The notes beneath the pieces are model-generated. The model was not told where the DNA came from, made no database searches, and saw nothing but the letters and a program-made list of their open reading frames with translations. Below, in pieces: positions 9,688-22,739 of a stretch of DNA of 24,166 nucleotides. How positions within the stretch are numbered: position 1 is the first letter of the stretch; the number at the start of each line of letters is the position of its first letter. The translations under genes and the position numbers were made by a program. The DNA comes from a virus: positions 1 through 24,166 of the IMG/VR virus record IMGVR_UViG_3300031952_000137. The stretch is one strand, 5' to 3'.

Positions 9688-10065
9688 ATGCCGCACGCCG
9701 ATCCGCAGAAAAGACGCGAATATGAAGCCGCTTACATGAGGGGATGGCGAGCCAGAAACTCAGCGAAGGTCGCGCAGTACGGCAAGGATTATCGCAAGAG
9801 AGTGCGTTCCCAGATAATCGAAATGTATGGCGGTAAGTGTGCCTGCTGCGGTGAGACAGAACCGCTGTTCTTGACGATTGACCACATCAACGGTGGGGGG
9901 AAAGTTCATCGGCAGCAGTTTCGTGGCATCCAGTCATTCTACTTCTCGTTGAAGAGGGAAGGATTCTCAAACGATTATCGCTTGTTGTGCTGGAACTGCA
10001 ATTCAGGTCGCTATTTTAACGGCGGTTCATGCCCTCATCAAGATAAGGGCGGGAGCGGGCTATGA
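9688..10065 (+). CDS. HNH endonuclease, free-standing
   Basis: The 125-residue protein has a basic helical N-terminus (RREYEAAYMRGWRARNSAKV) and an HNH core: CACCGE (residues 51-56), the catalytic stretch LTIDHINGGG with DH, and a second zinc pair in LLCWNCNSGR. This is the zinc-containing HNH group common in phages, either as small homing nucleases or as packaging partners when next to terminase. Here it sits among head-tail connector genes, which favours a selfish insertion. The coding sequence is visibly less GC-rich than its neighbours. GGAGG at 9674-9678 lies 9 nt before ATG 9688. Its stop overlaps the next ATG. Confidence 0.88.
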   Translation: MPHADPQKRREYEAAYMRGWRARNSAKVAQYGKDYRKRVRSQIIEMYGGKCACCGETEPLFLTIDHINGGGKVHRQQFRGIQSFYFSLKREGFSNDYRLLCWNCNSGRYFNGGSCPHQDKGGSGL

Positions 10066-10379
10066 AAGCTGGCACCCTTGATCGCCGTCTCAGTATTGAA
10101 TACTACACAGAGGCCCAGGATGCCTACGGCGAGGCGATCAAGACGTGGGTCGTCCTGGAGACCGTATGGGCTCAGATGACGCCCGTGCGGGGTACGGAGC
10201 GCTACGTGTCGCAGCAAGTGAGCGGCGAGGCAGAGATGCGCTTCCGCATCCGCTGGCGGACCGACGTGACCGACAAGATGAGATTGTACTGCGAGAACGT
10301 CTACTACAACATCACTGCCGTTCTGGAGATTGGCCGGCGGGAGGGCTTGGAGATCATGGGGAAGGCGTTCGTGCCCTGA
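10062..10379 (+). CDS. Head-tail joining protein (SPP1 gp16/HK97 gp7-like)
   Basis: The 105-residue protein begins MKAGTLDRRLSIEYYTEAQDAYGEAIKTW and continues WAQMTPVRGTERY and RFRIRWRTDVTDKMRLYC, the standard layout of the Phage_H_T_join family. These stoppers close the connector after packaging and join the head to the tail. The ATG at 10062 overlaps the HNH stop (ATGA) and GGGAG lies just upstream, so the inserted HNH gene still allows coupled translation. Its TGA overlaps the next ATG (TGATG). Confidence 0.9.
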   Translation: MKAGTLDRRLSIEYYTEAQDAYGEAIKTWVVLETVWAQMTPVRGTERYVSQQVSGEAEMRFRIRWRTDVTDKMRLYCENVYYNITAVLEIGRREGLEIMGKAFVP

Positions 10380-10780
10380 TGCAAGTAACCTGCACCATCG
10401 AGGGCATGGGCCACCTGAAGGCCCAGTTTGAGGAGCTGAGCAACAAGGCCCAGCGAGCCGTCATGCGGAGCGCCCTCAAGCAGACGGGCGCCGTGGTGGT
10501 CAAGGCGGCGAAGGCGACTGTGCCCGTGCTGACCGGCAAGCTCAAGAAGTCGATCAAGTCAAGCGTGAGCGTGAAAGAGGGCGGCGCGTCCTATGTCGAT
10601 ATCAGTTGGAGCAAGGATGCGTTTTGGGGGCTGTTCGTCGAGAAGGGTACGAGCAAGAGATCGGCTCATCCCTTCTTGCGCCCGGCGCTGGACGAGAGCC
10701 ATGCGGCTATCTTGCAGACATTCACCGAGGCCCTGAACCAGCAGATTCAGAAGCAGACAGCGAAGGCGAGGGCGCTCTAA
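10379..10780 (+). CDS. Head-tail connector/tail completion protein, HK97 gp10 family
   Basis: The 133-residue product has the features of HK97 gp10-like proteins: RAVMRSALKQTGAVVVKAAKATVPVLTG..KKSI near residues 28-60, then WGLFVEKGTSKRSAHPFLRPALDE (about 83-106). The VP..TG.L..SI and F.E.GT....HPFLRPA blocks are the family signature. It acts as a neck or tail terminator-interface protein. The start ATG 10379 overlaps the previous stop (TGATG); the longer open frame upstream is in the wrong frame of the joining protein and is not used. The stop overlaps the next start (TAATG). Confidence 0.92.
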   Translation: MQVTCTIEGMGHLKAQFEELSNKAQRAVMRSALKQTGAVVVKAAKATVPVLTGKLKKSIKSSVSVKEGGASYVDISWSKDAFWGLFVEKGTSKRSAHPFLRPALDESHAAILQTFTEALNQQIQKQTAKARAL

Positions 10781-11181: not shown

Positions 11182-11436
11182 ATGGCTCTCTACATTCAGC
11201 GTTCCAGGGCATTGCGGATTCACCGACCGGGCAAGCCCGACCTCATGTCGGTGCGGCCCGTCGACCGCAAGGGGAACTATGCGGACACCGCCAAGCCGAC
11301 GCTCATAGAGCTCGGCCCCGACTGCGCGGTGGACCCGGCACGGCTCTTGAAGATCGGCGCCATCGAACCCTACGTGGCTCCGGTAGCCGAGAAGCCGAAG
11401 GGGAAGGAGGCCACCAGTGGCGAAGCAACCAGCTAA
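11182..11436 (+). CDS. Small hypothetical protein before the tail tube genes
   Basis: I do not recognise this 84-residue protein. It starts MALYIQRSRALRIHRPGKP, has a central PTLIELGPDCAVDPARLLKIGAIEPYV segment, and ends in a charged, Ala/Lys-rich tail. AAGGAGG immediately upstream of ATG 11182 is a strong ribosome-binding site and the last 20 nt overlap the next gene, so it is translated as part of the tail operon. A tail-assembly accessory role is guessed from position. Confidence 0.75.
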   Translation: MALYIQRSRALRIHRPGKPDLMSVRPVDRKGNYADTAKPTLIELGPDCAVDPARLLKIGAIEPYVAPVAEKPKGKEATSGEATS

Positions 11437-12136
11437 GGGGATGGCCGTCTACTTCGATGAGTTTGTCTTCTCAAGCTACTTGAACTCGACGGACCAGACG
11501 ATCACCCCAGAGACCCCCGTAGTGACCAGCCTGGGCGATGCGGGACCACGCCGCCTTATGGCGAACTATGACGTGTCCCATTCCGATCAGGGGTTCATGG
11601 ACACGCTAGATGATTCCTATGACGAGCAACTGTTCACGGCGATGGGCGAAGCTGGTGATCACTGTTTGTCCAAGCTGCCTACCGGAATCGCGGAGGCGAG
11701 CATCTCCTACGATAGCCTTGTGAAGATCAGCGGGGAGCCGCGCTCGGCTGCGGTCGGCGGCGCTATCCTGCTGAACTTCGATTCTCAGGGATCGGGCGGG
11801 ATCGTGCGCGGCGTCGTACTCCGCAGCGGCGCAGCGGTAGTGGGGAACGGCGCGGGCCAAAACCTGGGCGCTACCGTGGCGGGGCAAGAACTCGCCGTCA
11901 TGTTCCGGGTCATCGCTGTTGCGGGAGGCAACATCATCATGCACATCGAAGGCGGCGCTGCGGACCCCCCGGCTGTTGACATCGCCGGCCTGACCACTAG
12001 CACGATGACGGTTCCGGGTTGCGAGCGAGTCAGCACAGTAGCCGCGACCAATGCTTGGAAGCGGGTCGTGACTGCAGGGACATTCACATCGGCAACGATT
12101 CTCGTCACGATAGGCGTCGTGATGGGAACAGGCTAA
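11417..12136 (+). CDS. Tail tube-like protein 1 with C-terminal extension
   Basis: This 239-residue protein is clearly paralogous to the next gene. Both begin (M)xKQPAK and share TPExPVVTxLxDAGPRRxxxNYD, then a variable part and KISG....GG.I.F....S...VR. Two tandem major-tail-like proteins fit the slot just before the tail chaperone and tape measure. After about residue 140 this copy has an additional beta-rich domain (GATVAGQELAVMFRVIAVAGG to TILVTIGVVMGTG), possibly a surface domain on the tube. The start is GTG 11417: AAGGAGG at 11404-11410 is 6 nt upstream, and only this start keeps the KQPAK opening shared with the paralogue. An alternative ATG is at 11441. Confidence 0.75.
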   Translation: MAKQPAKGMAVYFDEFVFSSYLNSTDQTITPETPVVTSLGDAGPRRLMANYDVSHSDQGFMDTLDDSYDEQLFTAMGEAGDHCLSKLPTGIAEASISYDSLVKISGEPRSAAVGGAILLNFDSQGSGGIVRGVVLRSGAAVVGNGAGQNLGATVAGQELAVMFRVIAVAGGNIIMHIEGGAADPPAVDIAGLTTSTMTVPGCERVSTVAATNAWKRVVTAGTFTSATILVTIGVVMGTG

Positions 12137-12164: not shown

Positions 12165-12578
12165 ATGCCGAAGCAACCGGCAAAAAACGCGAATATTATG
12201 GTCGACACGGTAGTCATGGAGGACGACATTGACTCGTTCTCCCTGACAGTCACCCCGGAGGTGCCAGTCGTAACGGCCCTCAGCGACGCCGGCCCCCGGC
12301 GTGTTGTGGGCAACTACGACTACTCGCTAGACATCAGCGGCGCAAACGACTTCGCGGCAGGGATGAGCGATGCGACGCTCTACAACCTCTGCTCCGACGC
12401 GGCGGGCGGGCCGGTGGGCGTTGACCCCACGGGCGCGACCCCTGCAACCGCATCCGATCCGCACTACGACGGCACCTACATGTGCTCCAGCTACAAGATC
12501 AGCGGCGCCGTCGGCGGGCGTATCGACTTCGCGGCGACGCTGGTCGGCGCGTCAGCCCTAGTGCGAGCCGTGGCATAG
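12165..12578 (+). CDS. Tail tube-like protein 2 (short paralogue)
   Basis: The 137-residue product starts MPKQPAKNANIMVDTVVM and shares TPEVPVVTALSDAGPRRVV and a C-terminal KISGAVGGRIDFAATLVG block with the preceding protein, but lacks its extra C-terminal domain. Size, copy next to the chaperone gene and a strong AGGAGGGAT ribosome-binding site before ATG 12165 suit the main tail tube subunit, with the longer paralogue as a second tube or adaptor protein. The family assignment is from gene order and paralogy, not from a diagnostic motif. Confidence 0.75.
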   Translation: MPKQPAKNANIMVDTVVMEDDIDSFSLTVTPEVPVVTALSDAGPRRVVGNYDYSLDISGANDFAAGMSDATLYNLCSDAAGGPVGVDPTGATPATASDPHYDGTYMCSSYKISGAVGGRIDFAATLVGASALVRAVA

Positions 12579-13359: not shown

Positions 13360-15201
13360 ATGGCGACCTTAGCCGAACTCGTAGTGAAGATTTCGGGCGA
13401 TACAGCATCCCTGAGCGCGGCGCTGGGACGGGCCGAGAAGCTGATGGGCGGGCTCCAGGGTGCGGCTGGCAAGGTTGGCAGTGCCTTCGGTGGCATGGCC
13501 AAGATTGCGGGCGGGTTTGTCATGGCGCAAGGGATCATGTCAGCACCGGGCATCCTCATGTCTGCGGCCCAGGCAGCGGCGGATGAGGAAGCGTCCCTAG
13601 CACGGCTCCAGAAGGCGGTCGAGAACACCGGCGCTGTCTGGTCGACCTATGGTGGGCAACTCGATGCTGTTGTTGAGGCGGGGATGAAGCGCGGGTTTGA
13701 CGATGATGCCCAACGCGCCTCCCTATCCCTCCTGATGGCGCAGACGGGCAATGCAGACGAGGCTATGCGCCGTTTCGCGCTTTCCCAGGATGTTGCCCGT
13801 GGTGCTGGTATCGACCTGGAGATGGCATCCAGGCTCTTAGGCAAGGTGACTGAGGAGAACGCCAACGTCTTCAAGAGGATGGGTATCAACCTAGAAGCGG
13901 GCGCGTCTGAGGCAGAGGCGTTCGCAGCGCTGCAACAGAAGTTCGGCGGGCAGGCGGAAGCCTACGCCAAGTCATCCGCCGGCCAGTTTGAAGTCGCCAA
14001 GATTCAGATGGGGGAACTCAAGGAAGATATCGGGGCCGTCCTTCTGCCTGCCCTGGTAAAGCTGGCGGGCACCTTCACCGAGAAGGTCATCCCGGCCCTC
14101 CGTGAACTAGCAGCCGAGTGGATACCCAAGATCAAGCAGGCTTTCGCTGATTTCGCCAGCAGTTCGGTATTTGCAACGGCGCAAGTAGGAATCATGACGA
14201 TCTACGAAGCGGGCAAGGCCCTCGTCGATTTCATCTCAAACAACAAGGTGGCGATGATAGCGACCCTCACCGCGATCGGTGTCGCAATCGCCGTCGCCAT
14301 CGGGCCAGCGAGTCTCGCAATCGCCGCCATCGCGGGGATCATCCTCGCCGTCGGCTATCTTCGCCAGCACTGGGATGACATTCAGGCCAAAACGCTGGAG
14401 GTCTGGAACGGTATCAGCGACTTCCTGAATGAGAAGTTCGGCTTCCTGAAGGGCATCTTTGAGACGGCCTTCACCTACTACTACAACATCGCCATGTTCG
14501 TCTTCGCGGAGATTAAGAACTACATCGAGACGACGATCAATATCATCCGCGACATTATTGTAGTCGTCATGGCGCTGCTGAAAGGCGACTGGAGCGGTGC
14601 CTGGGAAGGCATGAAACAACTCGTGACCGACGTGTGGGAGGGTATCAAGGGCGCAATCATGCCCGCTATCGACCTCATCCGCAACCAGCTTCAGCTTCTC
14701 TGGGACGTAACGGAAGGGCTGCGGGGCTTCCTGGCGGACAAGTTTGCCCCTGCGTGGACGGGCTTGTCGTGGGTGTTCGGGGTCGTGCAGAGCATCCTGG
14801 GCGATCTACGTGATGCTTTCCAGTGGGTGATCGACAAGGTGTTCGCACTGAAGGACGCGGTGGAGGATGCGCTAGGGCCGCTGGGGGACCTGATCGACAA
14901 GGCAGGCGATCTCCTAGGCAAAGCCGGCGATATCGGCGGCGGTCTAAAGAAGGGCCTCGGCTTCGCCTCCGGCGGCGTTACGCCGTACTCAGGGCTCTTC
15001 AGTGTAGGCGAACGCGGCCGCGAACTCGTAGCTTTGCCCGGCGGAAGCCGTGTCTACTCCAACACCGAGAGCCGCCAGATGGTCAGCGAAAGCACGCGCA
15101 TCGGGCATCAGGGTGATACCTACTACGGTCCCGTTACTAACGTGATCCAGGGCGGGAGCGATGAGGACTTCGGGCGTCTGCTGGAGAGGCGGTTCCGATG
15201 A
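13360..15201 (+). CDS. Tail tape measure protein
   Basis: The tape measure fixes tail length, occupies the tube lumen and enters the cell envelope during DNA ejection. This 613-residue protein has an N-terminal helix-rich start typical of the family (MATLAELVVKISGDTASLSAALGRAEKLMGGLQ), Ala-rich helices, a strongly hydrophobic stretch at about residues 290-337 (VAMIATLTAIGVAIAVAIGP and following), a second one near 395-405, and a C-terminal motif FASGGVTPYSGLFSVGERGRELV...GGSRVYS (about 540-567) seen in many tape measures. By the usual rule of about 0.15 nm per residue the tail would be near 90 nm. It starts directly at the end of the chaperone frame and is followed by a convergent lipoprotein gene after 5 nt. 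Confidence 0.93.
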   Translation: MATLAELVVKISGDTASLSAALGRAEKLMGGLQGAAGKVGSAFGGMAKIAGGFVMAQGIMSAPGILMSAAQAAADEEASLARLQKAVENTGAVWSTYGGQLDAVVEAGMKRGFDDDAQRASLSLLMAQTGNADEAMRRFALSQDVARGAGIDLEMASRLLGKVTEENANVFKRMGINLEAGASEAEAFAALQQKFGGQAEAYAKSSAGQFEVAKIQMGELKEDIGAVLLPALVKLAGTFTEKVIPALRELAAEWIPKIKQAFADFASSSVFATAQVGIMTIYEAGKALVDFISNNKVAMIATLTAIGVAIAVAIGPASLAIAAIAGIILAVGYLRQHWDDIQAKTLEVWNGISDFLNEKFGFLKGIFETAFTYYYNIAMFVFAEIKNYIETTINIIRDIIVVVMALLKGDWSGAWEGMKQLVTDVWEGIKGAIMPAIDLIRNQLQLLWDVTEGLRGFLADKFAPAWTGLSWVFGVVQSILGDLRDAFQWVIDKVFALKDAVEDALGPLGDLIDKAGDLLGKAGDIGGGLKKGLGFASGGVTPYSGLFSVGERGRELVALPGGSRVYSNTESRQMVSESTRIGHQGDTYYGPVTNVIQGGSDEDFGRLLERRFR

Positions 15202-15206
15202 GAGGA

Positions 15207-15572
15207 TTATTCGCCGTTAAGAATGCGGCTGCACTCCTCCATGAGCATGTTCCCGACGCGCAATTTGTCGCCGGGGCTTGCTGTCTGGCCGGGGACCGCT
15301 GTTTGGGCAGGGAATGGCGTCGAAGTCGGACCAATCTCATCGGGACTTGCATCTATGACTTTCACCGTGTCCTCAGCCGACAATCCCTGGATGCTTCGGC
15401 ACAATGCAGGTGCGGCAGAGTCGGTCAGGATCACTCGCACTTGGAGCCGCATAGCCGATTCCGTGGTATCAAAGCCCTTCATGTGCAAGACCCTATCCGA
15501 TTTCGTATTCCCGCCGCCGCACGCCGCCGCTCCCAGCGCAAGTGCGGCTATGAGAACAATCGTCCATTTCAT
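15207..15572 (-). CDS. Small secreted lipoprotein on the opposite strand (moron)
   Basis: The 121-residue product has a clear type II signal: MKWTIVLIAALALGAAAC with a lysine, a hydrophobic core and a lipobox-like AAAC at residue 18, followed by GGGNTKSD. The mature part is small, with LHMKGFDTTESAMRLQVRVIL, a Pro/Thr-rich stretch near residues 82-100 and cysteines at 58 and 114 that could pair. AGGAG at 15585-15581 on the minus strand is 8 nt before its ATG. It is the only convincing reverse-strand gene, with its own extended -10 promoter, so it fits a lysogenic-conversion moron. Phage lipoproteins that block superinfection are known (TP-J34 Ltp, T5 Llp), but no sequence identity to them is claimed. 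The + strand ORF overlapping it is judged a shadow. Confidence 0.8.
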   Translation of the reverse strand: MKWTIVLIAALALGAAACGGGNTKSDRVLHMKGFDTTESAMRLQVRVILTDSAAPALCRSIQGLSAEDTVKVIDASPDEIGPTSTPFPAQTAVPGQTASPGDKLRVGNMLMEECSRILNGE

Positions 15573-15612
15573 TGTCTCTTCTCCTCTCAGAACCTAACGC
15601 GGCGGGGATTAA

Positions 15613-15632
15613 ATGATAACACACTTTGTCAA
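15613..15632 (-). promoter_or_regulatory. Extended -10 promoter of the lipoprotein gene
   Basis: On the minus strand TATCAT (15618-15613) is preceded by TGT, giving the extended -10 pattern TGnTATCAT. A TTGACA (15632-15627) lies only 8 nt upstream of the -10, too close to act as a normal -35, but extended -10 promoters can work without one. Transcription would start near 15606 and reach the ribosome-binding site and the ATG at 15572 after about 34 nt. Confidence 0.5.
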
Positions 15633-15643
15633 GGAGCAGCCTG

Positions 15644-18046
15644 ATGGCGCTTTCACCTAGCCTCTTCGATGGCGTAAATATCCTTGCGGCGCCCTACTCG
15701 CGCGCGTCATTCGTGCGCGGCGACGGCACCAGCCTGGGACCTGTTTTCGAGCCGACGCCGGTGCAAGTCTCCGGCGCCTTCGGCACGGTTGCGGCCGCAC
15801 AGCCAGGCGGCAAGTCCTTCCCGCTCTACGTCCAGCTCGTCTCTCCCGTCACCGAAGACAACGTGTCGACGCTCTGTGCGCTGTTTGACCCCGAGAAGAC
15901 GGCGGACGGCACGCTGGTCTATCTCAAGGCTACCGACGGGAACGCTGTCACGCGGCGCATGGCCGTGGCGATCCGCCAGATCATCCCTGACGAGCAAGCC
16001 TTGAGCGCGTTCCGCATCTCACTCTATGCGCCTGATCCGCGCTGGGAGCAAGACAGCGAGCAGACTGACACGCAGGCGGACAAGAACGCTAGCCCCGTCA
16101 ACTGGACGATCACACCGACCGGCTCGATGCGGACATACCCCACGATCGAGATCACGCCCGATGCGGTCAAGGCCCACGCCAACGGCTATATCGCCCGTAT
16201 GTTCGTCGTGACGGCGAACAAGGTCTCGCGCACTGTTATGGACTCGCTCGGGTTGGGCTTCCCCGTCGACATCATGAATCACCTATTCGACATGGCGACG
16301 CTGACTACCGGCTCAATGCAGGCAGACGGCGATGACCTGCGTGTCTTTGTCGACGGCAAACGCATCAAGAACTTCATCGGCGAGGACAGGTTCTTCGGTC
16401 ATATCGACGCTGCGACGACGAAGGTCTGGACTAACATAGCCTTCCGCCCCTGCCGCACGGCAACGCTGGACGCCGCCGCGTTCACTGCTATCAGCCCCGC
16501 GAACACGGAGAGCATCCACGTCGACAACATGGGCGGTCTAGCGGGCTGGCCTTCTAGCGGCTATCTCCTGCTCGACGACGAGGTGATCTACTACAGCGAG
16601 CGGGACAGCGCCTATTTCTACGATATTCGGCGCGCGCAGATGGGCACCGCTGCGGCTGCGCACAACGACGCCATCACGCTCTACTGGGTCGAGCATGAGA
16701 TACAGGTTCTCTATGACTACACGGCGGCAGCGAACCCGCCCGCGTCGACGGATGTGCAGCCCGTCATCGACCTGGAGAACTCGACGAATGCTTACCACGT
16801 CTACCCGGGTCCGTTCATCGACCCCGACAGTCTGCGCACCGGCCAATTCCTGGCGACGTACCGCGAGACTAACGACGTTGCGCCGTACCTGTCGATGGAC
16901 GATACCGGCGCCGTCATCAAGGTCGTTGATACCGCCCCGAGCGCGGGGAAGCCCGCACGCAACAACCTGGAGCTCTACACGCCGCTTGGCGTCGACACGG
17001 CGGCGGCCTCGCTGGAGCAGGACGTGACGGTGCCGAACAATATGCTCGCGCGGGTGTACGGGACGGACACGGACGGCAACGAGAGCCTGCTGGAGGAATG
17101 GAACCCCGACACGGATGGCGCGAATGAGCAGATAACGCCTGCGGGTGTGCTGACGCGGCTGCGCTATGAGGGACTGGTGCGGACGGTGACAGGCTTCACG
17201 GCGACGGGCGATGCCTATGATGCTGAACTAGCGGGGCCAGCTACAGCGCATCGGGGCTGGGCACCGACCTTCGTCCTGGCGCAGAAGACGGTCGTGTCGG
17301 GATTCGTGATTCGTGCCAAGAAGACTGCGGGCGCTACGGGCCATTTCTTCGTGGCCATTCGCGAGGCCAGCGACGCCAGCCCAACTGTCCTAGAAGTCTG
17401 GGGATATTACAACGTGGAGACCGCAGCCCTGGGTGTTGCCTACGCAGATGTCAAGTACCTCTTCCCCACTCCTGTAACCCTTGAGGTCGGCACCTATAGC
17501 CTTTATATGTACGCCGACACGATAGCTACTGCGTCGGTCTTCCTGAGTGGGATAGCGGGCCACGCTTGGACTTACCCCGTTTGGAAGAATGTCAGTGGCA
17601 CATGGGGGATAGTTAGCGAACCAGCGTACTCTATCTGGTTCCAGTTGCTCGGCGACGGCTCCGTGTGTCAGCCCGAAGTGCCGGTCGGCTCCGCCGCTAT
17701 CGCCCAGTACGACAACATCGAGATCACCTGGGATACCCCGCTCTACGTCAAGTTCCAGACAGCCGAAAGCGTCTACGCCTATAGTGGCATTCTGGAGAAC
17801 CTGACGACGGCGCAGAGTGTCAGCATTTACGCCATCGGCAAGGTCGCGGAGGCGCTAACAATCGACTGCGCTAAGCGCGAAGTCACCGGTGGCGAACTCG
17901 GTCTCCCTATCCCGTACTGCGCGGAGTGGAGCGACGAAGGCGCGGGTCTGTATCTGCTTCCTGGCGTCGCTAACTCTATGCGTTGGACGGAGGCCGGCAT
18001 CGGCACACTGACCTTTGTCACGACCTGGCGCGGGAGGTGGAGCTAG
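15644..18046 (+). CDS. Distal tail protein (Dit-like), enlarged by inserted modules
   Basis: Dit forms the ring at the tail tip on which Tal and fibres assemble. The N-terminal part (PSLFDGVNILAAPYSRASF, LYVQLVSPVTEDNVSTLCALF, FRISLYAPDPRWEQ) and the C-terminal end (TIDCAKREVTGGELGLPIPY near residue 740, then TLTFVTTWRGRW) are those of Dit-like tail proteins. At 800 residues it is about three times a simple Dit. The extra parts include a stretch with GYLLLDDEVIYYSERDSAYFY and RRAQMGTAAAAH (about 305-340) and a beta-sandwich, probably carbohydrate-binding, at about 530-670 (FVLAQKTVVSGFVIRAKKTA to YSIWFQLLG). AAGGAG at 15631-15636 is 7 nt before ATG 15644; the longer TTG start at 15626 is not needed. 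Confidence 0.83.
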   Translation: MALSPSLFDGVNILAAPYSRASFVRGDGTSLGPVFEPTPVQVSGAFGTVAAAQPGGKSFPLYVQLVSPVTEDNVSTLCALFDPEKTADGTLVYLKATDGNAVTRRMAVAIRQIIPDEQALSAFRISLYAPDPRWEQDSEQTDTQADKNASPVNWTITPTGSMRTYPTIEITPDAVKAHANGYIARMFVVTANKVSRTVMDSLGLGFPVDIMNHLFDMATLTTGSMQADGDDLRVFVDGKRIKNFIGEDRFFGHIDAATTKVWTNIAFRPCRTATLDAAAFTAISPANTESIHVDNMGGLAGWPSSGYLLLDDEVIYYSERDSAYFYDIRRAQMGTAAAAHNDAITLYWVEHEIQVLYDYTAAANPPASTDVQPVIDLENSTNAYHVYPGPFIDPDSLRTGQFLATYRETNDVAPYLSMDDTGAVIKVVDTAPSAGKPARNNLELYTPLGVDTAAASLEQDVTVPNNMLARVYGTDTDGNESLLEEWNPDTDGANEQITPAGVLTRLRYEGLVRTVTGFTATGDAYDAELAGPATAHRGWAPTFVLAQKTVVSGFVIRAKKTAGATGHFFVAIREASDASPTVLEVWGYYNVETAALGVAYADVKYLFPTPVTLEVGTYSLYMYADTIATASVFLSGIAGHAWTYPVWKNVSGTWGIVSEPAYSIWFQLLGDGSVCQPEVPVGSAAIAQYDNIEITWDTPLYVKFQTAESVYAYSGILENLTTAQSVSIYAIGKVAEALTIDCAKREVTGGELGLPIPYCAEWSDEGAGLYLLPGVANSMRWTEAGIGTLTFVTTWRGRWS

Positions 18047-19644
18047 TGCGCGACGTTGTATGGCTCCGCGCGGGCTTCCCGCCTTTCCGCCGTCTCTGCC
18101 GCCTCAGCACGGCGAACAATGTTGATCGCTCGTTTCACATCATGGACGCGGGGCAGGCCGTCGTGGAACTCGCCGCCTCCGACCCCGATATCGCCGAAGT
18201 CACCGAGGGGCGCATAGTAGAGATTCAGGGCTACCGGCGAATTAAGTGTGGGATTCCTGAGAACGAGGTGGCAGTCGCGGGTTCCTACGTTTGCTTTAGC
18301 GATGGCACAAAGCGCCACCGTGCACAAGCCTTTCGGACACCGCGTACTGGCGGCGGCCAGTTCACGGCGGTCAGCCTGTCGCTCTTGAAAGTCCTCGCGC
18401 CAACCGGCACGCTGCATCTGCATCTCTACTCGAACGCTGTGGCGACGGATAAGCCGGATACTGCACTCGCTACCAGTACGAATACGATCAACTGCGCCGA
18501 CCTCACAACCTCAGCAGAGTGGTACAGCTTCACCTTTGCCCCATTTCCCCTATCGTCGAACACCACTTACCACTGGGTTCTCGACGTAGATGATGCTGTT
18601 CAGGATAACGCCAATTACGTCCGCGTCGCTTACAGCCTAGCTGGCTACAACTTCAGCGGCAATCGGGCCTATAGCGCGGATAAGATCACTTGGTCTTCTT
18701 CTTCGACCAATGACTTCCTCTGCCGCTTCATCTGTGACTGGTATCGAGAGGTGCAGGCGGTAGCACCGTGGATCGGCTGGATAGATCAACTCGGCGATGA
18801 AGATGATACGGGCGTCGTCACCGTGGACTGCGTAGACGCCGCAACGAAACTCGGCGAACGGCACTCGGGTCTCACTACGGCTCGCAGCGGTTGCGCCGGC
18901 GGGATCGCGCGCGACCTCCTGTACGAATGCAACTCCCGCAACGGCCTCGGCATCATCTGGGACCCGAACTCTGAGGTCGGTATGCCCGTCGCCAACATTG
19001 ACGTGTCCGGCTCCTCCGTACTCGACGCCCTAAACAAACTCGCCGACGCGACGGGCGATGAATGGTGGTTTGAGTACGTCATCGCGCCGGACCAGCTCAA
19101 GATTATGCTCCACTGGGGCTGGCAACAGGGCTTTGACCTCTCCGGCCGCGTATGCCTACGTGACGGCTACGGCATCAGCAGTTTCGGCTACTCCCGCGAC
19201 GCGATAGAAGAGGCGGAGTCTGTCCTTGTCGTCGGCAGCGGCGGGACGATGAACGAGCGCCCGGGCGTCGTGCGCGCTGTCAATCAGCCCGAACGTGCGG
19301 CCCTGTCGGGGGTGCCCGTTCAGGGTGCGAGCCAGACGCAGCGGCTGCGACAGGTCTCCGAACCGGCGCTGGCGGCAGAGCGCGTCATTGTGGCGCCCCG
19401 CGAGAGCGATATCGGCGTGCTGGCACGGATAGCCGAGCGCGATCTTGAAGCCACGTGGGGAGCACTGGAAACCGTCTCGATGACGATCAATGAAAATGTG
19501 GACTGGGCGACGGTGCCCGTAGGGAGCATCGTGCGAGTAATCCACGATACGGCATGGGGCACGCTCGACCGGCATATCCGTGTCATGGAGATGCAGCCGG
19601 GCGATGGTATCTGCGACCTGGCAGTGCAGGTGCTCAATGACTAG
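18046..19644 (+). CDS. Tail-associated baseplate hub protein (Tal/Gp37-like) with inserted lectin-like module
   Basis: The 532-residue protein resembles the Gp37-like hub proteins that follow Dit in siphoviruses: GRIVEIQGYRRIKCG early, then WIGWIDQLGDEDDTGVVTVDCVDAATKL, IARDLLYECNSRNGLGIIWD, NIDVSGSSVLDALNKLADATGDEWWFEY, SYGYSRDAIEEAESVLVVGSG-like text and a C-terminal ISERDLEATWGALET. Residues about 79-233 form an inserted beta-sandwich: QAFRTPRTGGGQFTAVSLSLLKV, PTGTLHLHLYSNAVATDKPDTALA, FPLSSNTTYHWVLDV. The start is GTG 18046, overlapping the Dit stop (TAGTG), with GGGAGGT 7 nt upstream; the open frame further upstream is only a shadow in Dit. It probably closes the tail tip and contacts the host surface. 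Confidence 0.83.
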   Translation: MRDVVWLRAGFPPFRRLCRLSTANNVDRSFHIMDAGQAVVELAASDPDIAEVTEGRIVEIQGYRRIKCGIPENEVAVAGSYVCFSDGTKRHRAQAFRTPRTGGGQFTAVSLSLLKVLAPTGTLHLHLYSNAVATDKPDTALATSTNTINCADLTTSAEWYSFTFAPFPLSSNTTYHWVLDVDDAVQDNANYVRVAYSLAGYNFSGNRAYSADKITWSSSSTNDFLCRFICDWYREVQAVAPWIGWIDQLGDEDDTGVVTVDCVDAATKLGERHSGLTTARSGCAGGIARDLLYECNSRNGLGIIWDPNSEVGMPVANIDVSGSSVLDALNKLADATGDEWWFEYVIAPDQLKIMLHWGWQQGFDLSGRVCLRDGYGISSFGYSRDAIEEAESVLVVGSGGTMNERPGVVRAVNQPERAALSGVPVQGASQTQRLRQVSEPALAAERVIVAPRESDIGVLARIAERDLEATWGALETVSMTINENVDWATVPVGSIVRVIHDTAWGTLDRHIRVMEMQPGDGICDLAVQVLND

Positions 19645-19825
19645 GCGGAAACTCATCGGGCAATCGAAGCAGCGGCGGGGTCTCGGCTATCTACGGGGCA
19701 GTCTCGCCAAAGTCGATGAGCTGGAACGGGCGCCACAGGGCATCACCGCTACGGCAGGAACCGCCTCAATCATCGTGAAGATAGGCAATCGGCGTTACCG
19801 AGTTTCGGCCACGCGCCTAGATTGA
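19637..19825 (+). CDS. Small basic hypothetical protein after Tal
   Basis: ATG 19637 lies 8 nt inside the end of the Tal gene, with AGGTG at 19628-19632 just upstream. The 62-residue product starts MTRRKLIGQSKQRRGLGYLRGS and ends in a beta-like AGTASIIVKIGNRRYRVSATRLD. It is basic at the N-terminus, with no membrane segment or known motif. Short proteins of this type, with an N-terminal tail and one small beta domain, are common between Tal and fibre genes; the role is unknown. The open frame reaches further back, but the earlier part lies in the Tal gene. Confidence 0.62.
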   Translation: MTRRKLIGQSKQRRGLGYLRGSLAKVDELERAPQGITATAGTASIIVKIGNRRYRVSATRLD

Positions 19826-19846
19826 ATAGCTGAAAGGCATGGAGGA

Positions 19847-20029
19847 GTGAGAAGAGACGCAACGGTTTTCGCAGTTCCAGCGCAGGCGTTCTCACGAGCC
19901 CCGAACGAGAACATCCAGCATCATTGTCCACTCTGTGACAAGACATTGGGTTGGGACGAGTTTCAGGCCCACGCGACCGCTTGCATAGCAGCGCACCCTG
20001 AAGCGGTGCGCGAGATTGAGGAGAGGTAA
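19847..20029 (+). CDS. Small zinc-finger protein
   Basis: A 60-residue frame opens at GTG 19847 and ends 3 nt before the next gene. It contains HHCPLCDKTLGWDEFQAHATAC followed by IAAH (shown here in parts: HHCPLCDKTL, GWDEFQAHATAC), that is CxxC, 12 residues, H, 4 residues, C, which fits one C2H2/C2HC-type zinc finger. The start is uncertain because GGAGGA directly abuts the GTG, and no better start is visible before the finger. It could be a small DNA- or protein-binding factor within the tail region; I cannot assign a family. Confidence 0.55.
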   Translation: MRRDATVFAVPAQAFSRAPNENIQHHCPLCDKTLGWDEFQAHATACIAAHPEAVREIEER

Positions 20030-20498: not shown

Positions 20499-22739
20499 AT
20501 GGCGAACCCAGCGTCCGATATTCGGGCGGAAGTCCTTGCACGCCATCCCGATGCCGTTCTCATCGAGCGTGGCCTGAGTCATCTCCGGCACCAGCTCCCT
20601 GACCTCGACGGTAGGCAGCGCTTTGTTCTGAATGCCGTCATCGGGGCGCTGCACTACAAGGACGACAAGGCAGAGTGGCAGGAGATAGATGATGCCCTTG
20701 AGGACGACGGCGCTGAGGGGTTCAGCGTCCGCACGGGACACACCGGGCACCTGCTACGGATGGCGGCGGACGGCAAACGTCGCCTCTACCCGAACCGTTA
20801 CGACCTCACTCGCTATGTGGAGTTCTCCGCCCTACCGAGCGTGGGGACTCCGCAGCGGGGCGAGAACTACCTGGCATGGGACAGGCCCCACTTCGCCGTC
20901 AAGATGTTCTCCGGCGGCACCTGCGTCAAGTTCCTCTTCCTTCTCAAGGATGCGTCGGCTCCCACCAGCGTCAGCTTCAATGTTACCCTGGTCGGCCTGA
21001 CACGGCAGGGGCGCTTCCTGCTGGCGGACGGCGTGCCCGTGGCGGAGATGCGCCTGCCGACCGCTGTTGACGCGGCAGGGACGGAACGCGACTGCACCTT
21101 CACCCTCAGTACGGGGAAGGTAACGATCAGCCTCGATACCACCGGCCTCGCCTTCCCCATCGAGATCGACCCGACGGTGGACGTGCAGGTCGGGGCAAGT
21201 GGCGATGATGGATACAGATATTCCACCTCCTACTTCAACGTGGTCGCCACCTCCATGACTGTAGGTTACAGCGGCAGCGCCCGTCGCGGTTTCTATCGCT
21301 GGACTGGTGTAACACTCGCAGGGACGATTGATGTCTCCTACGTCCAGGTTTACCCCGGCAGTGCCGCAACTGGGATTCCCCAGCTAAAGATAAGAGGTGT
21401 TGACGAAGATAACCCAGCAGCACCAACAACTTATCAGCAATTCGACGCTGACCCCTTAACCGCTCACGGAATCGATTGGGATGGTGCTTGGACTGAGAAC
21501 CAATGGGCTCAGTCCCCTTCCCTGAACGACATCTTCCAAGAGTTGGTAGGCTCCTACACCATCTCCAACGATGCCGTCATGCTCCAGATAAACGACGATG
21601 GGGGGGTCGATAACAACTACCAGACGGTACGCACCTGGGACTACAACACTCACGGGTACGGCGCGAAACTCCACATCGAATACTCGGTCGGCGGCGGCGC
21701 GACGGTTCTTGCGGTTACGGCTCAGGCTACAGCCGAAGCCCTGCTGCCCACGATTACAACCGTCCGCAGCCCAACGATATTGGCCGTCACCGCAGAGGCT
21801 ACCGCCGAAGCGCCGCTCCCGACGATAGGGATATTCAAGACCGTCTTAGCCGTGACAGCCCTAGCGGTGGCAAGTGCCCTACTACCTACTATAGCCGCAG
21901 TCCGCAGCCCAACCGTCGCGGCCGTGACGGCGGAGGCGGCGGCGGCGGCTCCACTGCCGACCATCACTGCTGGCACCGGCACCACCGTTTTGGCCGTCAC
22001 CGCAGAGGCTACGGCAGACGCCCTGCTGCCGGCCGTAAGTACCATCCGTAGCCCGACCGTCTTAGCGCTCACGGCTGAGGCAACAGCCTTGGCTCCCGCG
22101 CCGACGATCACTGTTGGAGTTACCGCAACAATCCTTGCCGTGACAGCAGAGGCAACGGCGGATGCCTTGTTGGCCACAGTAGCAACTATCCGTAGCCCCA
22201 CGGTTCTGGCGGTTACGGCAACGGCCACGGCAGACGCCCCACTCCCCACGATCACCGCTATCAGGAACCCGACGGTTCTGGCAGTGACAGCAGAGGCGAC
22301 GGCAACATGCCCCCTACCTACGGTTACAGCTATTAGAAACCCCACCATCCTTGCAGTCACGGCCGAAGCCGCGGCTGCTTGCCCGGTCCCTACCGTAGCC
22401 GCTATCCGCAGCCCAATGATCCTTGCGGTTACAGCGATTGCAACCGCTATGGCCCCGGCGCCGACTATCACTGCCGGCGGGCTGGGGGTTGTCCTGGCAG
22501 TTCCGGCCGAGGCGATGGCGGCGGCTCTGTTGCCCGCAATCAGCACTGAATTGCCGAGCCTTCTTTCACTGTCCGCATCGTATGAGCCGACCCTTTCGCT
22601 CTCGGCATCACAGGAATCATCTATCGCGCTGTCCGCATCGTATGAGCCGACCCTTTCGCTCTCGGCATCACAGGAATCATCTATCGCGCTGTCCGCATCG
22701 TATGAGCCGCAACTAGATTTGGAGGCGAGCTATGGCTGA
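20499..22739 (+). CDS. Large modular tail fibre/receptor-binding-like protein with tandem repeats
   Basis: The 746-residue protein has three parts. Residues 1-232 include ALHYKDDKAEWQEIDDAL, YLAWDRPHFAVKMF and FPIEIDPTVDVQ, a beta-rich phage surface region. Residues about 233-398 form another module: RRGFYRWTGVTLAGTIDVSY, LKIRGVDEDNPAAPTTY, LTAHGIDWDGAWTENQW and AKLHIEYSV. Residues 402-687 are twelve repeats of about 24 residues on the theme TVLAVTAEATADALLPTI, followed by a short tail built of LSASYEPTLSLSASQESSIA repeats. No enzyme motif is seen. AAGGGG precedes ATG 20499. The end overlaps the BppU-like gene by 8 nt. A host-surface or glycan-binding fibre is the best guess. Confidence 0.78.
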   Translation: MANPASDIRAEVLARHPDAVLIERGLSHLRHQLPDLDGRQRFVLNAVIGALHYKDDKAEWQEIDDALEDDGAEGFSVRTGHTGHLLRMAADGKRRLYPNRYDLTRYVEFSALPSVGTPQRGENYLAWDRPHFAVKMFSGGTCVKFLFLLKDASAPTSVSFNVTLVGLTRQGRFLLADGVPVAEMRLPTAVDAAGTERDCTFTLSTGKVTISLDTTGLAFPIEIDPTVDVQVGASGDDGYRYSTSYFNVVATSMTVGYSGSARRGFYRWTGVTLAGTIDVSYVQVYPGSAATGIPQLKIRGVDEDNPAAPTTYQQFDADPLTAHGIDWDGAWTENQWAQSPSLNDIFQELVGSYTISNDAVMLQINDDGGVDNNYQTVRTWDYNTHGYGAKLHIEYSVGGGATVLAVTAQATAEALLPTITTVRSPTILAVTAEATAEAPLPTIGIFKTVLAVTALAVASALLPTIAAVRSPTVAAVTAEAAAAAPLPTITAGTGTTVLAVTAEATADALLPAVSTIRSPTVLALTAEATALAPAPTITVGVTATILAVTAEATADALLATVATIRSPTVLAVTATATADAPLPTITAIRNPTVLAVTAEATATCPLPTVTAIRNPTILAVTAEAAAACPVPTVAAIRSPMILAVTAIATAMAPAPTITAGGLGVVLAVPAEAMAAALLPAISTELPSLLSLSASYEPTLSLSASQESSIALSASYEPTLSLSASQESSIALSASYEPQLDLEASYG
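21702..22559 (+). repeat. Twelve 24-codon repeats in the fibre gene
   Basis: Eleven units of 72 bp and one of 66 bp encode TVLAVTAEATAxAPLPTI followed by a short spacer that often reads TAIRSP or TAIRNP. The protein pattern is well kept while the DNA has diverged, so this is an old repeat array under selection. The regular strand-like periodicity suggests a repetitive rod or beta-solenoid-like stalk. Confidence 0.85.
22569..22709 (+). repeat. Perfect 60-bp tandem repeat, 2.35 copies
   Basis: Units 22569-22628 and 22629-22688 are identical over all 60 bp, and 22689-22709 repeats the first 21 bp. The unit starts CTGTCCGCATCGTATGAGCC and encodes LSASYEPTLSLSASQESSIA in frame. Identity at silent sites shows a recent duplication. 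Confidence 0.95.

Follow-up and report, generated by a model that had tools for sequence, protein, structure and literature searches.

What is a single reverse-strand gene doing inside the tail operon of a phage? The window, meaning the whole stretch of DNA analysed here, is the complete IMG/VR virus record IMGVR_UViG_3300031952_000137 (linear, 24,166 bp) and holds a siphophage head and tail operon with every operon gene on the + strand. Between the tape measure protein (TMP) gene and the gene for a Dit-like (distal tail) protein lies a 442-bp gap without a convincing + strand gene, and a predicted lipoprotein gene is read from it on the opposite strand. That this gene is a moron, an insertion separating genes that adjoin in relatives, is well supported. 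The role that we infer as the most likely for its product is exclusion of superinfecting phages as they inject DNA, a reading on which our judgement is evenly poised.

Is the lipoprotein gene real?

The gene and its signals are as follows.
15207-15572, reverse strand: lipoprotein gene, 121 aa, start ATG, lying within 15202-15643.
Within that gene, reverse strand: predicted signal peptide of 17 aa, lipobox GAAAC and predicted lipidated Cys18, by sequence pattern only.
15580-15585, reverse strand: Shine-Dalgarno (SD) sequence AGGAGA, 7 nt before the lipoprotein ATG.

The N-terminus reads MKWTIVLIAALALGAAA followed by C18GGGN..., so that the predicted product has the signal peptide, lipobox and Cys of a bacterial lipoprotein. 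Residues ~82-99 form a Pro/Thr-rich stretch, and the stop codon lies 5 bp past the TMP stop (15201). Since antisense open reading frames (ORFs) reach 328 aa in this GC-rich window, ORF length is no evidence for the gene; the evidence is the joint occurrence of SD, signal peptide and lipobox. In a strict search this combination was found once in the real window and in none of 100 shuffled windows, and it was absent from 20,000 shuffles of the 442-bp gap. Among the uncovered gaps of the window, the lipoprotein ORF is also the sole minus-strand candidate with both an SD and a hydrophobic segment. An earlier reading of the same DNA, made from the letters alone (the sequence-only reading), had named it the only convincing minus-strand gene, with a lipobox-bearing signal peptide and a good ribosome-binding site (RBS), and was right in both respects.

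Could the real gene instead be the + strand ORF at 15198-15644 (148 aa), with the lipoprotein ORF as its antisense shadow? That ORF spans the gap from end to end, with an ATGA overlap with TMP and a TGATG overlap with Dit, and the related locus L002 has a similar spanning + strand ORF of 82 aa. However, it lies in the codon-aligned antisense frame, which is commonly open in GC-rich DNA, found no match in family searches, and has a poorer codon score than the minus frame (-0.081 vs -0.049). The minus frame of L002 encodes a clear Pmp3 protein, the + frame of a third locus, L061, stops after ~21 codons, and the minus-strand signal peptide, lipobox and SD are left without account. This alternative was considered and rejected as highly improbable; the + strand ORFs in the window and L002 gaps are probably the antisense shadow of the minus-strand genes.

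No homologue of the lipoprotein was found in Pfam, NCBIfam, PADLOC, PDB sequences, cultured phages, plasmids, viral contigs or genome contigs, the scans of the two contig sets being made with short exact peptide patterns that detect close relatives only. The Pfam search returned no match at E<=1, hence no Ltp/host-cell-surface-exposed-lipoprotein domain; the PADLOC models of known anti-phage defence families left the protein unmatched; PHROGs gave just weak matches over the signal peptide; and an Rfam search gave no match. A single-sequence structure prediction was set aside because its pLDDT of 49 would not support a fold search.

Is it an inserted cassette?

Comparison with relatives, located via their TMP and Dit sequences, bears on the following features.
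13360-15201, + strand: TMP gene, 613 aa (PHROG 58, E=8e-28).
15202-15643, no strand assigned: full extent of the cassette inserted at the TMP-Dit junction, from comparison with cassette-free relatives.
15644-18046, + strand: Dit-like gene, 800 aa, ATG at 15644 (PHROG 202, E=0.022, weak by profile).

The homologue of the Dit-like gene in L061 matches the PHROG Dit at 4.7e-7. Most relatives have no cassette, and 0-3 bp separate their TMP and Dit. The gap measures 442 bp in the window, ~245 bp in L002 and 192 bp in L061. The slot of L002, whose TMP is 66% identical to that of the window overall and 88-95% across the first 240 residues, carries on the minus strand a 59-aa Pmp3/YqaE membrane protein preceded by AGGAGA (PF01679, 2.7e-13), which also matches PHROG 38199 (category moron, membrane associated) at 1.6e-20. 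That of L061 carries on the reverse strand a 42-aa protein with a single transmembrane (TM) segment and the RBS GGGAG. The cargo of the three slots is mutually unrelated in sequence.

The insertion point can be read from the junctions. In the cassette-free L017 and L024, TMP ends with ...TTTAGGGGTGCCTAAATG and the Dit start overlaps it. In cassette phages the corresponding Arg codon is the last of TMP, and on the far side of the cassette stands the ..GGGGGTGCCTA(A)-start stretch; the insertion point is therefore near the TMP 3' end, and Dit retains its RBS because that stretch sits on the far side. An AAGGnG..GCCT stretch at the right end of the cassette matches what relatives without a cassette have at the TMP 3' end (TTTAGG^GGTGCCTAAATG). 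The GC content of the gap (56.6%) is below that of the flanking genes (60.3 and 62.1%), and L002 and L061 show the same trend. The position between TMP and Dit given by the sequence-only reading was confirmed, and its claim that the gene is a moron is well supported, with different reverse-strand cargo filling the same slot in other phages.

These comparisons also bear on the very unlikely explanation that the protein is a virion or lysis component, that is, a lipoprotein made late that serves virion assembly, DNA injection or lysis, perhaps in the manner of an o-spanin. The gene does sit among tail genes, and o-spanins include short Pro-rich lipoproteins. However, nearly all relatives with the same tail genes lack the lipoprotein, and L002 and L061 have unrelated proteins instead. 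Moreover, the orientation of the gene opposes late operon transcription, and the holin-like genes are distant, at 23-24 kb.

Are such cassettes confined to the tape measure gene?

One rule (reverse-strand ORF, SD and hydrophobic segment) was applied to all uncovered gaps of >=110 bp across 31 related loci with 468 + strand genes. Five matches were obtained, all adjoining TMP: downstream in the window, L002 and L061, and upstream, again on the reverse strand, in L025 (63 aa, one TM segment) and L033 (113 aa, a zinc ribbon plus TM segment). A sixth reverse-strand candidate (44 aa, AGGAGG), upstream of TMP in L013, was found by hand and stands outside the scan count. Reverse-strand membrane genes thus occupy 5/25 TMP-flanking gaps vs 0/73 other gaps (Fisher p=0.0008, a descriptive value because the TMP flanks were inspected before the scan was written), and shuffles expect 0.17 matches in the TMP flanks. 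The sequence-only reading had tied the lipoprotein to the neighbouring TMP gene; with all five scan cassettes and the hand-found sixth flanking TMP, the tie is stronger than it had claimed.

Two other reverse-strand genes for exported proteins were seen in related phages. L028 has at 19337-19990 (reverse strand) a second lipoprotein gene, with Thr-Pro repeats, ~8 kb downstream of TMP, and L031 encodes at 10250-10516 (reverse strand) an 88-aa exported protein downstream of the tail genes.

The cassettes also share promoter-like elements, which in the window are the following.
15613-15621, reverse strand: extended -10-like element TGTTATCAT, with the same sequence in L025 and a similar one in the remaining cassettes; ~40 nt separate it from the ATG downstream.
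15602-15632, reverse strand: element TTGACAAAGnGnGT-N9-ATCCCCGC, also present in L002, overlapping the Dit SD of the other strand.

An extended -10 of the form TGnTATNNT is present in 5/6 cassettes, L002 having TATAAT instead, and lies 21-47 nt before the start codon. Despite their unrelated genes on opposite sides of TMP, the window and L025 have 13 identical bases, TGTGTTATCATTT, in common, a match of a length reached in 0/500 shuffles. The longer element shared with L002 was found nowhere else in the window, nor in shuffles, and when viral contigs were scanned with the cassette-element pattern, only two chance matches in unrelated contexts (L064 and L065) were obtained beyond L002 and L061. 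The window, L002 and L061 also have in common a TTGACA that overlaps the Dit RBS; its distance from the -10, 7-8 nt on the upstream side, is too short for a -35.

What might the lipoprotein do?

In siphophages it is TMP that opens the way for DNA. In the proposed mechanism, a discrete single-gene cassette, placed in reverse at the TMP-Dit junction of a tailed phage, would be transcribed from the silent prophage, opposing the direction of the late operon, by means of an extended -10-type promoter of its own, and would likewise bring its own RBS. Set beside TMP, upstream or downstream, such cassettes would deliver cargo that is unrelated in sequence and always membrane-attached (lipoprotein, Pmp3, single-TM, zinc ribbon plus TM). 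Here the exported, lipid-anchored protein would disturb, at the cell membrane, the step in which the incoming TMP opens the DNA path. Within a late operon, a gene on the reverse strand that has a promoter of its own would suit prophage expression, and the presence of unrelated envelope proteins at matching sites suggests the cell envelope as the likely site of action. Exclusion at DNA entry is the best explanation because TMP is the common neighbour and because HK97 gp15, Ltp and SNIPE, compared below, provide precedents. Expression from a lysogen also accords with the relatives: tyrosine integrases occur in 9/29 related records searched, including one cassette carrier (L033/G018), so that at least part of the group is temperate. 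The window phage itself is long-tailed and probably temperate.

The main rival is that the protein serves lysogenic conversion, altering host envelope fitness (stress, adhesion, receptor masking or membrane potential) with no anti-phage role, the TMP flanks being tolerant insertion sites. We regard this as a serious if tentative possibility: the relatives' cargo includes Pmp3/YqaE, a stress-linked membrane family, the PADLOC and Pfam searches gave no superinfection-exclusion domain, and HK97 also has morons distant from TMP (gp22/gp23). On the other hand, tolerance of insertion would have to accommodate cassettes that favour TMP flanks above the 73 other gaps and a cargo that is membrane-attached without exception, and the characterised HK97 gp15 and Ltp work through the tail tube or TMP.

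Several observations weigh against exclusion at DNA entry, or against steps leading to it. Codon usage of the lipoprotein gene is only weakly like that of the phage's own genes (codon log-odds 1.9); a weak match is expected of an acquired gene, but is no proof of coding. No canonical sigma-70 -35/-10 pair was found for it in a promoter scan, so that of the own promoter claimed by the sequence-only reading what stands is the extended -10 shared with cassettes of relatives. No terminator was found by consensus scan or inverted-repeat search, both simple scans, the terminators of the host may be of another kind, and not every moron need carry one. The scanned loci are centred on TMP and related, and hence are not independent samples; the TMP tree, which is poorly resolved, needs the cassette state to change 3 times to account for the six carriers (3-4 times over the bootstraps), and also permits a single origin. 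As no integrase was found in the window record, a fragment, lysogeny of this phage is read from its kin. Finally, the activity of a protein without a homologue is not readable from its sequence, and cassette cargo could serve any envelope function.

A wider reading, to which we lean less than to its opposite and which is somewhat unlikely, would make the TMP flanks a dedicated exchange site in this environmental phage group, where reverse-strand cassettes with a shared promoter element swap unrelated membrane proteins, each an exclusion factor matched to its co-inherited TMP; anti-TMP factors of many folds would then be findable by position. Exclusion proteins acting on DNA entry are difficult to recognise and have no sequence signature in common. 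Should they prove to be reliably located at the TMP flank, position, reverse strand and membrane signal together would become a search rule, and the linkage to TMP would open the old question of target choice to swaps of TMP alleles between laboratory phages.

Other features of the record

A cultured-phage search with the tape measure found only distant Gordonia phages (33% identity). A separate record, L003 (IMGVR_UViG_3300031999_000880), encodes TMP residues 1-287 that are 100% identical to those of the window, and its contig stops before the cassette. Three further features of the window were observed.
9688-10065: HNH-like ORF lying between head-tail connector genes, with two CxxC pairs; it may be a free-standing homing endonuclease.
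12165-12578: resembles the major tail protein gene at 11417-12136 in its N-terminal region (...TPEVPVVTALSDAGPRR), of which it is apparently an incomplete tandem copy.
20499-22739: tail protein with many ~20-aa tandem repeats (TVLAVTAEATADALLPTI) and a second repeat block at the C-terminus.

How does the lipoprotein compare with known systems?

Phage proteins of the Pmp3/YqaE family (PHROG 38199, class moron) are known from Paenibacillus phages BN12, PG1 and Lily, and the same-slot cassette of L002 carries one. They are unrelated in sequence to the window lipoprotein, and their settings differ: the BN12 gene lies near the integrase/repressor region, and the PG1 gene on the + strand in the tail module. 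The latter, at L066 4001-4156 (cultured phage PG1, HQ332138 10820-10975), is an unannotated gene in a 316-bp gap.

Three systems concern TMP itself. SNIPE, a membrane nuclease, associates with TMP during injection (PMC13190303). Ltp of the Streptococcus thermophilus phage TP-J34, a proposed membrane-anchored exclusion protein, is also a phage lipoprotein and of similar size (142 aa vs 121 aa here). The parallel drawn by the sequence-only reading stands in that Ltp escape mutations map to TMP (PMC4737114, PMC10883804); it fails in that the window lipoprotein is not Ltp-like by sequence and that ltp, unlike the gene between TMP and Dit described here, belongs to the lysogeny module, at a distance from TMP. 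HK97 gp15 is a membrane superinfection-exclusion protein from which phages escape by exchange of the tail tube/TMP region (PMC4737114, PMC10883804). It has 62 aa and one TM segment, is annotated as a moron product, and is encoded directly upstream of TMP. The two have in common a single gene for a small membrane-attached protein abutting a siphophage TMP, the membrane site of the lipoprotein being predicted; they differ in strand, gp15 being read with the late genes from a position upstream of TMP and the window gene against them. No alignment or sequence similarity was found between gp15 and either the lipoprotein or the L025 protein. By sequence, then, the lipoprotein belongs to neither the gp15 nor the Ltp family; by position and predicted membrane attachment, gp15 is the closer precedent of the two. 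New here are reverse-strand cassettes with swapped cargo, their common promoter motif, and their concentration at both flanks of TMP.
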